Part shown: positions 1 through 25,080 of the stretch, one piece after another | Layout of the letters: the number at the start of each line of letters is the position of its first letter | Numbering within the stretch: the first letter of the stretch is position 1 | Notes under the pieces: model-generated | The model's database searches: none | What the model was told of the DNA's origin: nothing | What the model saw: the letters and a program-made list of their open reading frames with translations, nothing else | Assembly: GCA_013334485.1 (NCBI GenBank) | Contig: JAAXXL010000006.1 | Span: forward strand, 1-64,000 | Direction of reading: 5' to 3' | DNA: 64,000 bases | DNA from: Chlorobiaceae bacterium | Lineage (GTDB): Bacteria; Bacteroidota; Chlorobiia; Chlorobiales; Chlorobiaceae | Made by a program: the position numbers and the translations under genes

Positions 1-127
1 ATTTATTCCGAAACCCGATTACTGCGTTGGGTGGTGCTCGAAATCCTCATGTACTACGTGTACACTCCGGTTTCTGTGCTCCATCCGCCTTGTCCTCGGG
101 CTTCTCACGACAATAAATAGAGGTGCC
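1..127. repeat. Quasi-palindromic ~138-bp element, copy 1 (left end cut by window edge)
   Basis: ATTTATTCCGAAACCCGATTACTGCGTTGGGTGGTGCTCGAAATCCTCATGTAC...GACAATAAATAGAGGTGCC; near-identical to 10047-10184. Confidence 0.95.
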
Positions 128-144
128 GTAGTGGAGAAGCGGTT

Positions 145-687
145 TTATTCGCCCTCAAAATCGGTAAGCGAGTAGACGCTGTATCCCTTTTCAAGAATTT
201 TGCGCTCTCCGCCGATATCTGGCAGATTGACAATAAAAGCCATTTCCGCAATAACACCACCGACCTTTTCAACAAGAGCCGCAGCAGCGAGTGCAGTGCC
301 GCCGGTAGCAAGCAGATCATCGACAAGCAAAACCTTCTGACCGGGCTTGAGAGCATCTACATGAATTTCGATCTTGTCGGTTCCATACTCAAGTTCATAC
401 TCCTGGGAGACAACATCTGCTGGAAGTTTTCCGGGCTTTCTGACAGGAACAAATCCCTTGCCGAGCGTGTAGGAGAGTGCGCCGCCGATAATAAAGCCTC
501 GAGCCTCAATGCCTACAATCACATCAAAATCAACACCATTTTGAAGATAGTGCTGTGTAAGATTATCGATAACCAGCCTGAAACCTACCGGATCCTTGAT
601 AAGGGTGGTAATATCACGAAAGAGAATCCCTTTTTTCGGATAATCGGGAATCGAACGAATACGGGATTTAATGGGCATGGATAGCAA
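145..687 (-). CDS. apt: Adenine phosphoribosyltransferase (start possibly 678)
   Basis: PDYPKKGILFRDITTL and VLLVDDLLATGGT PRPP-binding motif. Confidence 0.96.
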   Translation of the reverse strand: MLSMPIKSRIRSIPDYPKKGILFRDITTLIKDPVGFRLVIDNLTQHYLQNGVDFDVIVGIEARGFIIGGALSYTLGKGFVPVRKPGKLPADVVSQEYELEYGTDKIEIHVDALKPGQKVLLVDDLLATGGTALAAAALVEKVGGVIAEMAFIVNLPDIGGERKILEKGYSVYSLTDFEGE

Positions 688-9226: not shown

Positions 9227-10045
9227 ATGCTGCACCATAAAGTCACCCCTGAAAGTCCGATAGGCATCTTTGACTCCGGTGTGGGAGGGCTGACCGTGGT
9301 CAAAGCCATCCGGGCAGCTCTCCCCTCAGAAAGACTGATCTACTTCGGCGATACGGCTCGTGTTCCTTACGGGCCTAAATCCCAGATTACCATCCGCAAG
9401 TATGCCGCTGACGACACCGCCATACTCATGCGCTATCAACCAAAATTGATTATTGTTGCCTGCAATACCGTTTCCGCCCTTGCTCTTGACGTGGTCGAGA
9501 AATCGTGCAGCGGAATACCGGTGATCGGCGTACTGAAAGCCGGCGCCGCGCTGGCCGTGCAGGTAACAAAAAACAACCGTATCGGGGTTATCGGAACCCA
9601 GGCCACAGTCTGCTCAAACGCCTACGCCCGGGAGATCAACCTCTTGAGTGAGGAGGCGGAGGTAATCTCAAAAGCCTGCCCGCTTTTTGTTCCGCTCGCC
9701 GAAGAGGGTTTTATTGACCACCCTGCCACAAAACTTGTTGCTGAAGAGTATCTTTCCGGGATCCGCAAGCACAATATTGATACCCTCGTCCTCGGATGTA
9801 CACACTACCCGATCCTCAAGCAGGTGATTGCAGAGAGCATCGGGCCCGGCATCCGCATTATTGACTCGGCTGAAGCTGTAGCCATCAAAACAAAAGAGCT
9901 TCTCACTGAGTCAGGCCTGCTTAATCCGGCTGAAGAGCCTTCAGTACCTCACCTGCTTGTGAGCGATCTGCCCCAGAAATTCAGCCAGCTCTACCAGCTC
10001 TTTATGGGCATGGAGATGCCGGATGTTGAATTGGTGGAAGTATAA
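9227..10045 (+). CDS. murI: Glutamate racemase
   Basis: [27 protein letters not shown]. Confidence 0.97.
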
Positions 10046-10046
10046 T

Positions 10047-10184
10047 GGGCACCTCTATTTATTCCGAAACCCGATTACTGCGTTGGGTAGTGCTCGAAAT
10101 CCTCATGTACAACCTGTACACTCCGGTTTCTGTGCTCCATCCGCCTTGTTCTCGGGCTTCTCACGACAATAAATAGAGGTGCCC
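10047..10184. repeat. Quasi-palindromic element, copy 2 (complete, 138 bp)
   Basis: Perfect 17-bp TIR GGGCACCTCTATTTATT / AATAAATAGAGGTGCCC. Confidence 0.95.
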
Positions 10185-10281
10185 TAATACCGGAAAGAGC
10201 GACTCCCCTCTTTTTCACCTTTGCCTTTTGCCGTCACAGTTGTTACTTTTGACTTTTCCTATTGACCTTAATCTCTATAGC

Positions 10282-21450: not shown

Positions 21451-24162
21451 TTAATCACTGAGAACTTCCAGATTGCTCTTCAACTTCTCCAGATTATCCC
21501 CCGCATCCCTCAACTTCTGCTGCTCCTGCTCAATAAGCTCTTTCGGAGCATGATCGGCAAAACCGGAATTAGAGAGTTTTTTTGTAAGTGCTCCAACATA
21601 GTTTGAAACATTTGTGATCTCTTTCTGAAGTCGCTCCCGCTCCTTTTCAAACGATATCAACCCCTCAAGCTGTACAAATAGTTCATTGCCCTCAACCACT
21701 GAGCCTGCAGCATGCTTTGGCCGCGCAGTATCGTGGATAATTTCGGGCCTGCACTGTGCGAGCGAAGCTATGAGAGCAAGATCTCTCTCGAAAACCGCCC
21801 TGTCGGCATTACTGCCAGGCCTGAGCTGAACGACAGCCTCGACGTTGTGGGGAACGCTGAAGAGTGAACGGATACTTCTGATCTCGGAAACCACCTTCTG
21901 GATGAGCGTGAAGCTGCTAATATCAATTCCGGCAAGCGCTGCGTCAGCAACCGGCATGGAAGCCGAAGCAATGCTCTCTTCCGTGGTACGGGGAAGGATG
22001 TGGTGCCATATTTCATCGGTAATGAAGGGCATTACCGGATGAAGCGCTTTCAGGGTACCTTCAAGCACATGAACCGCAAGGCATACCGTCCGGCGTGCCT
22101 CCTCTTCAGAAAGTGGACCGGCAAGTCTTACTTTAAGGGCTTCGAGGTACCAGCCGCAGAAGTCACCCCAGAAGAATTCATAGACGTTCCGGACAATATC
22201 GTTGAGCCGGAACTGGGCAAAGGCTGTGTGATAGCGCTCAAGCATCGCATGATAACTTGAAAGCAGCCACTCTCCTGCCAGATCGTTATTGACCGCATGG
22301 GGATCAAACTCGCGGTATACTGCAGCAAACGCTTCCGAATCAGCGAAATACTTCTCCCGCTGCATGAAGACAAGACGGGTGGCGTTCCAGATTTTCGTGG
22401 CAAAATTGCGGCCAAGCTCACACTTCTCCTCACCGAAAAGCACATCCTGACCAAGAGGGGCAATGTAGATGATGGTGAAACGGAGCGCATCGGTTCCGTA
22501 GATATCGATCACCTTGAGCGGATCCGGCGAATTACCGAGCGACTTGGAGAGCTTGCGCCCTTTCATGTCGCGAATGATACTGGTCAGGTAGACATCACGA
22601 AAAGGAACCTCACCTTTAAAGTAAAGTCCAGCCATAATCATTCTGGCAACCCAGAAAAAGATGATATCGGGACCAGTGACCAGGGTGTTGGTCGGATAGA
22701 ATGCCCTGAGATCGGCATTGTCACTGTGTGTGTCGGTCCATCCGAGGGTTGTAAGAGGCCAGAGCCATGAAGAGAACCAGGTATCGAGCACATCATCATC
22801 CTGTACAAGCTTGTCGGTACCGGCAAGGTGGCAGGCCTCTTCATAGGTAGCAGCAACCCACACCCTCCCTTCGGTATCGTACCATGCAGGAATGCGGTGT
22901 CCCCACCAGAGCTGACGGGAGATGCACCAGTCACGGATATTCTCCATCCAGTGGCGGTAGGTGTTGATCCAGTGCGGGGGATGGAAACGGATCTCTCCGT
23001 CGTTGACCACCTGAAGCGCCTTTTCGGCAAGCGGCGCCATTTTGACAAACCACTGCTCGGAGAGGTAGGGTTCAACCACAACATCCGCCCGTTCGGAGTA
23101 GCCGACATTGTGTTCGTACTCTTCAACGCGGACGAGATTGCCGCTCTCTTCAAGATCCTTGAGAATTTTTTCACGTGCGTCAAACCGGTCCATACCTCCG
23201 TAACCGAACGAATCGGTCATCCGGCCATCCTTGCCGACCACCGAGATTGCCGTCAGGTTATGGCGGCGAGCCACCTCATAGTCATTGGCATCGTGGGCAG
23301 GTGTGATTTTCAGGGCACCGGTACCGAACTCGATATCGACATAGTTGTCGGCTATAATGGGAATATGCCTTCCCGCAACCGGCACAATGGCGAGTTCCCC
23401 GACAAGATCGCTGTAGCGAGGATCCTCAGGGTTGACGGCAATGGCAACGTCAGCAAGAATGGTCTCGGGTCTGACGGTTGCAATGGTGATGAAACGTCCA
23501 GGATGGCTGACAAGCGCGTACTGCACATAGACCAGTTTGTCACGACGGGGCTTCATAATCACCTCTTCGTCGGAGAGCGCAGTCTGCGAGACGGGGCACC
23601 AGTTGATAATACGGGTTCCGCGATAGATCAATCCGTCACGGTAGAGCGCAATAAAGGCATTGATAACTGCCGTCGAAGCACTCTCGTCCATGGTGAAGAG
23701 ATTTCGCCGCCAGTCGCATGAAATACCGAGCCGTCGAAGCTGACGGAGTATAAGACCGCCATACTCATCCCTCCACTCCCAGACATGATCAAGAAACTCT
23801 TTTCGACCGAGATCGTGGCGAGTGATGCCCTCTTTTTTCAGCTTTTTCTCCACCACCGTCTGCGTGGCGATACCTGCATGATCAGTACCGGGAAGCCAGA
23901 GCGCCTCCTTGCCGGTCATACGGCTGTAGCGGATAAAAATATCCTGCAATGTATGATTCAGTACATGGCCGAGCGTCAGGCTGCCGGTAACATTGGGAGG
24001 CGGCATCAGAACGCTGTAGGGTGTTTTTCCCTCATCCAGAACCCGCGAGCTTTCGCCGTGAAAGGTTCCGAGAGCTTCCCAGTGTGCACTTCTCCACCGC
24101 TCTTCTACATCGTGATGGTTATAAGTTTTTTCAAGATTGAAAGGGGTGGAGTTATCGCTCAT
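21451..24162 (-). CDS. valS: Valyl-tRNA synthetase
   Basis: [36 protein letters not shown]-terminal coiled coil. Confidence 0.97.
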
Positions 24163-24201
24163 GATTTAAAAATCGGTTACAAGTACAACTGAAAGAGTAA
24201 T

Positions 24202-24344
24202 GGGCACCTCTATAAATCTGTTCCGCGATCCGATTACTTCGTTGGGCGGTGCTCAAAATCCTCATGTACTCTCGTGTACACTCCGGTTTCTGCGCTCCGG
24301 CCGCCTCGTACTCAAACCGCTCACGACAATTTATAGAGGTGCCA
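24202..24344. repeat. Quasi-palindromic element, copy 3 (complete, variant subtype)
   Basis: GGCACCTCTATAAAT / ATTTATAGAGGTGCC TIRs; internal CCTCATGTAC...GTACACTCCGGTTTCTG core. Confidence 0.92.
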
Positions 24345-24402
24345 TAATGGTATTTCAAACAACTTCTTCAGACACTGAAAAAAACTTCAGGGCCTCCAAG
24401 AA

Positions 24403-25080
24403 TCAATCTTTCTTTTCCGGCAATGGCCGTCTTTCAAATATGGAGTCAATGATACCGTAATCAAGTGCCTCCTGGGCATTCATCCAGCGATCCCTTTCGG
24501 AATCTTCCCGTATCTGTTTAACATCCTTGCCTGTGTGGCGGGCAAGCAGTTCATCAAGCAGTATGCGGATCTTCTCTATTTCACGCGCCTGAATGATAAT
24601 ATCGGTCTCCTGACCGTGTGCGCCACCTGAAGGCTGATGGATCATGATTCGCGAGTGAGGAAGCGAGGCTCTCTTGCCTTTGGCTCCGCTGGCAAGCAGA
24701 AAAGCTCCCATGCTTGCCGCCATGCCTACACAGACGGTCGAAACATCAGGGCGAATATACTGCATGGTGTCATAGATGCCGAGACCGGCAGAGACACTTC
24801 CACCAGGAGAGTTGATGTAAATATAGATATCACGCTCGGGATCCTCCGACTCAAGAAAAATAAGCTGCGCCATGAGGAGGCCTGCCACATGTTCATCAAT
24901 ACCACTGCCGAGAAAAATAATCCGCTCACGCAGCAGCCTCGAAAAAATATCGAATGCCCTCTCTCCGCGGCCGGAAGTCTCTATAACCATCGGAACAAGA
25001 GTGTTGGTGATCCCCTGTTCTATAGCTCCGGAATACAAGGTTTTGGCATGATGTTCAAAACCAAAATTGATATTTGCCAT
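24403..25080 (-). CDS. clpP: ATP-dependent Clp protease proteolytic subunit
   Basis: [42 protein letters not shown]. Confidence 0.97.

Follow-up and report, generated by a model that had tools for sequence, protein, structure and literature searches.

A palindromic intergenic element of Chlorobium with the properties of a MITE, its interior found under different terminal repeats in several phyla

The window, a 64,000-nt stretch of a Chlorobiaceae genome, holds three copies of a palindromic element of about 140 bases. The data support its identification as a non-autonomous DNA transposon of the MITE type, and its outer ends appear to be borrowed from whichever transposon moves it. We think it fairly probable that it is a MITE built of two modules, in which the tips are terminal inverted repeats (TIRs) recognised by a transposase and have been exchanged, and the conserved interior is a hairpin of a superfamily that crosses phyla, the ERIC/IRU repeats probably forming one of its branches.

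The first complete copy occupies positions 10047 to 10184 of the plus strand (138 bp; covariance-model score 116.5 bits), between a left tip, GGGCACCTCTATTTATT (10047–10063), and a right tip, AATAAATAGAGGTGCCC (10168–10184). The interior between them (10064–10167) is the covarying hairpin common to several phyla, with an internal loop (CTGCGTTG // CGCCTTG) and an apex of the form CCTCATGTAC-loop-GTACACTCCGG. The copy is flanked by TAAT target duplications (10043–10046 and 10185–10188) and lies between the glutamate racemase gene (9227–10045) and ispH/lytB; as the first three bases of the left TAAT are the racemase stop codon, insertion took place exactly at the gene end. The second complete copy (24202–24344, plus strand, 114.4 bits) is of another subfamily, about 80% identical, and sits with its own TAAT duplication (24198–24201 and 24345–24348) between valS (21451–24162) and clpP (24403–25080), both on the minus strand. 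The third (1–127, plus strand, 117.8 bits) has lost its left end at the contig start and is directly 3' of apt (145–687, minus strand). Run on the window, the covariance model returned exactly these three copies, at 114–118 bits with the next best at 13.5.

All three are where the earlier note had placed them. The perfect 17-bp terminal repeats that it described are present in the 10047 copy, but the 24202 copy ends in A instead of C, and the note's length of 138 bp is correct for the 10047 copy but not as the standard, which is 142 bp. The 10047 copy is the 142-bp element minus one TTAT unit; L096, its ortholog at this site in C. ferrooxidans, retains the unit and measures 142 bp. The proposed long hairpin is borne out: the 10047 copy folds at −57.2 kcal/mol (z = −8.4), a stability reached by none of 200 shuffles, and its opposite strand also folds stably (z = −8.3). 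ORFs lying over the copies had been dismissed as artefacts, and the two tested, at 105–356 (minus) and 24200–24460 (plus), have no Pfam match.

The copy number far exceeds the handful that the note had named as a limit, with 60 covariance-model matches in the 2.59-Mb Chlorobium-like genome, at least 40 copies by blastn in the source genome, and 87 terminal motifs there versus one for a reversed control pattern. Several copies sit at contig ends, indicating that the repeat has broken the assembly. Among relatives, a blastn search with the whole element matched 18 of the 37 genomes from this genus, counting the source genome, and none of the 24 from beyond the genus. Among 61 non-identical copies with the tip GGGCRCCTCTAT and readable ends, drawn from the source and related Chlorobium genomes and in part orthologous, the 4-bp flanks are identical in 38, where 3.4 would be expected from mismatched pairs; duplication lengths of 2, 3, 5 and 6 bp gave 1, 2, 0 and 0 matches in the same copies. 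The target of the Chlorobium element is A+T rich, most often ATAA, TTAT, TAAT or ATTA.

An empty site was found as well, since the insertion at locus L018 is missing in three relatives (G007, G015 and G005), whose sequence continues across the target. Eight relatives are without the element in the valS-clpP gap orthologous to the 24202 site. Genomes G007 and G015 carry an independent copy of the same family elsewhere in that gap (L268 and L269), which suggests that the gap has been hit by insertion repeatedly. An inverted copy at the 24202 site itself was considered for two relatives and rejected in favour of independent insertion elsewhere in the gap.

All copies had been taken to lie between genes, and this holds for those examined: the 27 whose neighbouring genes were called each sit between ORFs, with an overlap of 6 bp at most. 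At another locus (L032, 1241–2047) the predicted start of a protein extends into an element (MYTEYLRILSTAQRSNRIAEQ...), so that copies create false N-termini in annotation. No coding content was found, and Rfam returned no family at the gathering score for the window copies or their relatives, ERIC included, in keeping with the view that the element is neither an annotated RNA family nor a coding sequence. Target duplications and empty sites were among the proposed checks of the MITE-like reading; both are present, and together with the intergenic position of the copies examined and the lack of coding content they uphold it.

What escaped the earlier note is that the interior is shared across phyla, and probably with ERIC, and that the ends are interchangeable. 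This interior of about 105 bp is a covarying quasi-palindrome, and the outer 12–17 bp vary among lineages. A scan for the apex (CTCAWGTAC-N4-6-GTACAYTCCGGTTT) in one genome per species yielded at least 111 stretches, among those listed being stretches from Chlorobium, Gallionella, Ferrigenium, Sideroxydans, Formivibrio, Chitinimonas, Pseudogulbenkiania, Deefgea, Methylophilus, Desulfobacula, Vampirovibrio, one Deferribacteraceae and one Bacteroidales genome. Most follow one plan of about 140 bp: tip, ..CTGCG..GCGTTG..TGCTCgAAATCC, apex, GGTTTC..GCgCCTTG..CTCgCgAC.., reversed tip. Copy numbers of the interior range from tens to over 100 per genome in Gallionella, Formivibrio, Chitinimonas, Pseudogulbenkiania, Desulfobacula, Vampirovibrio, the Deferribacteraceae and the Bacteroidales. 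A covariance model built from 43 of the scanned stretches (R1) found 64 matches in C. ferrooxidans and 78 in Formivibrio; Chitinimonas has at least 150, Pseudogulbenkiania 144, Vampirovibrio 62, the Deferribacteraceae genome 45 and the Bacteroidales genome 27. At E ≤ 1e-5 the model matched 84 of 229 genomes sampled from the class of Formivibrio.

Stem covariation is strong in an alignment of 51 diverse copies, which favours the structure because it had been fitted to it: double changes number 278 versus 86 in shuffles, the covariation score is 0.546 versus 0.148 (slid controls, at most 0.13), and 91% of cells are paired versus 68%. RNAalifold on a plain MAFFT alignment gave 14 pairs with double changes. 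The interior also varies. One subfamily (L254, L263 and L266) has conserved arms and a different apex (GACCGAGACATATCAAG...), and thus the apex, and not the tips alone, can change. Elements of the source genome at L033 (690–890, contig C120), L050 (359–568, C79) and L053 (C102) have the usual tips and arms around a different centre (ACCACGAAACNGACGAAATNACACGAAAT...), the apex being replaced by other sequence; those with both ends present measure about 200–210 bp. In the Deferribacteraceae genome, one core copy (L098) comes immediately after the 3' end of an apparent tRNA gene.

ERIC repeats have been known since 1990–91 and are widely used in strain fingerprinting; we know of no account of their origin or of their transposase. 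They have been placed only in Enterobacteriaceae and Vibrionaceae (review, PMC10969869), and our search, which covered freely accessible literature, found no paper linking them with repeats from other phyla, so an earlier report is possible. Nor did it return relevant literature for the core letters or for Chlorobium repeats. The three ERIC copies came from records of E. coli, Kosakonia and Klebsiella, located with an approximate query whose matches to genomic loci reached 95%. R1 places them on top, weakly (E = 0.03–0.3, a rough value, as are the E-values that follow). R2, a model broadened by more distant members of the family but built without enterobacterial repeats, ERIC included, scores them at 29.6, 24.5 and 23.1 bits (E-values from 1e-7 to 2e-5) with the next best at 7.1, and in 50 kb of E. 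coli ERIC was its sole significant match (E = 4e-5, likewise rough; next best 11.7 bits).

Clear members of the family occur in enterobacteria: Klebsiella has one, and in E. coli a copy separates qseE from qseG (56–78 bits). Blastn matched the core of the latter in 4147 of 5426 E. coli genomes. The E. coli copies (L417, 1173–1298, and L418) and that of Klebsiella aerogenes (L416, 1474–1599) apparently have 3-bp TAA duplications.

ERIC and the Chlorobium element are thus probably branches of one superfamily; the link is probable and not proven because a sequence-only profile of the family does not find ERIC. That the element is a MITE as described but its likeness to ERIC a convergence of long palindromes seems rather unlikely to us. 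The failure of sequence-only profiles and the weakness of the first model speak for convergence, but ERIC aligns with R2 end to end, with register and strand identical in all three copies, and at 23–30 bits versus about 12 for the best chance match in 50 kb. Among 300 palindrome-preserving shuffles for each copy, 0, 5 and 0 were as similar to the family on average as ERIC is, so that none attained this for two of the three copies, and the qseE/qseG gap holds a clear family member within the enterobacteria.

The tips differ by lineage: GGGCRCCTCTAT in Chlorobium, GAACCTGTTCACGATCT in Formivibrio, Chitinimonas and Pseudogulbenkiania, and AGACCTCTGCACAAC in the Gallionella group, with CAGGGTGTTGAAAAAC, AGAGTTTGTGAAAA, GAGACCTTTGCACGA and others also found around the interior. 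Beside the 4-bp duplication of the Chlorobium tip, which two gammaproteobacterial copies with that tip (L331 and L333) likewise have, GAACCTGTTC has a 3-bp TNA duplication (17/23; 4.6 expected), CAGGGTGTTGAAAAAC, also given as CAGGGTGTTG, a 4-bp YTAR-like one (4/12; 0.9 expected) and GAGACCTTTGCACGA one of 5 bp (5/15; 0.07 expected). Counts leave out the Desulfobacula tip, where chance matches of a loose pattern dominate the automatic count, and AGAGTTTGTGAA, where the element boundary is not clear-cut. Since the duplication lengths differ by tip, different transposases are implied. Genome G250 holds several tips side by side: L340 and L341 share 91% identity in their interiors but have unrelated tips (TTCTACTGCGTCACAAAGCG versus AGAACCTGTTCACGATCT), each internally matched; L338 has the Chlorobium tip and L339 yet another.

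The same variety could in principle have arisen with no tip exchange, through tip and transposase co-evolving by point changes and palindrome arms being corrected against each other, differing tips then reflecting old divergence. The two tips of each copy do match in the tip classes examined, as quasi-palindrome correction predicts, and related-looking tips exist (AGACCTCTGCACAAC, GAGACCTTTGCACGA and GGGCACCTCTAT). We nevertheless regard this account as unlikely, as the 91%-identical interiors of G250 are flanked by tips without evident similarity whereas copies with related tips (L337 and L341) are 81% identical, the Chlorobium tip reappears in gammaproteobacteria (L331, L333 and L338), and the duplication length varies with the tip.

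Palindromes of about 24–76 bp consisting of tips only, or nearly so, occur in the source genome (L054, 383–417, and L056, 404–427) and in the gammaproteobacterium G159 (L398, L400, L404 and L405), some with target duplications. Such forms, including L056 and L054 and the 40- and 64-bp forms of G159, would be expected if the interior were the true mobile unit, inserting at the apex of short palindromes formed by a pair of IS ends, much as certain elements are directed to hairpins, so that the tips are an old target, and the Yersinia repeat YPAL is reported to insert at or beside dyad symmetries (PMC2229807). This is improbable in our judgement. Several short forms (L054, L404 and L405) retain remnants of the interior beside the tip, so that they look like deletion derivatives of full elements, and most of the short palindromes appear to be internal deletions of this kind; the target duplications around full-length copies show that the whole unit moves; and no orthologous site was seen in which the interior had been inserted into a tip-only palindrome.

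A structured RNA or transcription terminator spread by recombination, to which the covariation, the stability of the hairpin on both strands and the reported effect of ERIC on mRNA stability in Yersinia (PMC2229807) could point, is very improbable, given that exact 4-bp duplications and an empty site indicate insertion, that there is no Rfam match, and that the copies do not favour gene ends (16 tandem, 9 divergent and 2 convergent gaps versus 16, 8 and 5 in the window). A terminator role was rejected because convergent gaps are not preferred. An RNA effect may have arisen after insertion.

The preferred reading, a MITE moved through its tips, calls for transposases with matching ends. The search proposed for these had a divided outcome: none was found for the Chlorobium tip, and for a single tip class similar ends turned up in two other hosts. 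An IS of 850 bp in Pseudogulbenkiania (L421, 922–1771; ends GARCCTGTTCAAAGTCT) and one of 791 bp in Chitinimonas (L433, 1389–2179; ends GAACCTGKCTAAAGTCT) both have TTA duplications, and their ends resemble the tip GAACCTGTTCACGATCT (TNA duplication) of the same genomes, over the outer 7–11 bp and a common TCT, which is less than the full tip. The former carries DUF4096 and DDE_Tnp_1 domains, which places it in the IS5 family, and the latter was detected via its DUF4096 domain. TNA and YTAR target duplications are typical of IS5-family groups.

DUF4096 transposases were absent from all seven Chlorobium genomes searched, and DDE_Tnp_1 was missing in two of these; at 30 DDE_Tnp_1 loci no tip was present as a transposon end at 2 mismatches. 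The DUF4096 and DDE_Tnp_1 searches thus yielded no autonomous transposon with the Chlorobium tip, whose transposase may have been lost or may come from a family outside them. The single DDE_Tnp_1 transposase of the source genome was rejected as mobiliser, its ends differing from those of the element. Apparent end pairs spaced 1.35 kb and 4.2 kb apart (contigs C128 and C56) were also rejected as autonomous IS: the C128 stretch comprises ordinary genes and one complete element, and the left end on C56 is a shortened element.

In the mechanism that we propose, the outer tips of 12–17 bp would be recognised by a DDE-type transposase supplied in trans, for example from a resident IS, and the palindrome may bring both tips together for transposase binding. 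The unit would be inserted with a duplication length set by its tip, which is 4 bp with that of Chlorobium, and insertion between genes would be tolerated. The interior would persist while the tips change, so that one interior would be carried, in different hosts and even within one, by several transposition systems, of which at least one belongs to the IS5 family. Some function would keep it, perhaps a cruciform or hairpin aiding transposition, or an RNA effect like that of ERIC in Yersinia. New tips may conceivably form by recombination of one arm with a different small element, the opposite arm then being corrected to match. We would give roughly even chances to the fuller proposal that ERIC is a branch of an ancient cross-phylum superfamily of palindromes whose interior hairpin is under selection and which swaps its terminal repeats to use the IS transposase of its host.

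If the interior of ERIC is shared across phyla and does travel under different tips, two questions become open to experiment: which transposase mobilises elements of this type, and what role preserves the conserved hairpin while its ends change. One name and one model could then serve for unannotated intergenic repeats of many genomes, the widespread qseE-qseG copy of E. coli among them.

Of the known systems compared, integron attC sites were dropped by eye, their R-box-like letters being out of order. The "class 4" multicopy sites of Geobacter, which are said to resemble sequences in many genomes, were rejected because they are built on CCYTC pentanucleotide repeats. REP/BIME sequences, with GTAG or CGTC tags, are likewise intergenic palindromes of high copy number, but at 20–40 bp (PMC3733652) they are without the long TIRs and target duplications of the 142-bp element, so that neither the REP-like alternative first offered nor a REP/RAYT assignment fits. 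YPAL/RU-2 of Yersinia is also an intergenic palindromic mobile sequence, of about 168 bp; by eye, the published RU-2 sequence (PMC2759123, Table 1b) lacks the core motifs, and YPAL duplications vary from 3 to 26 bp (PMC2229807), unlike the fixed length seen here.

ERIC (IRU, RU-1) comes closer, being a non-autonomous, intergenic, imperfect palindrome of about 127 bp with a long stem-loop and a conserved central core. Its core is probably homologous end to end, at the level of distant membership only, sequence similarity being distant, and it has TA termini and a 7-bp TIR (PMC2229807), whereas the Chlorobium element has GGGC..GCCC ends, a 17-bp TIR and a 4-bp duplication and is therefore not filed as ERIC proper. 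Like the MITEs of the IS5 family, which are short and gene-free with TIRs and fixed-length duplications (TNA or YTAR-like), the element has many short gene-free copies, TIRs, a duplication of fixed length and an empty site, and in two hosts its tips resemble the ends of resident IS5-family elements. Ordinary MITEs, however, are deletion products of one IS, whereas here one interior is found with several unrelated tips and is kept across phyla.
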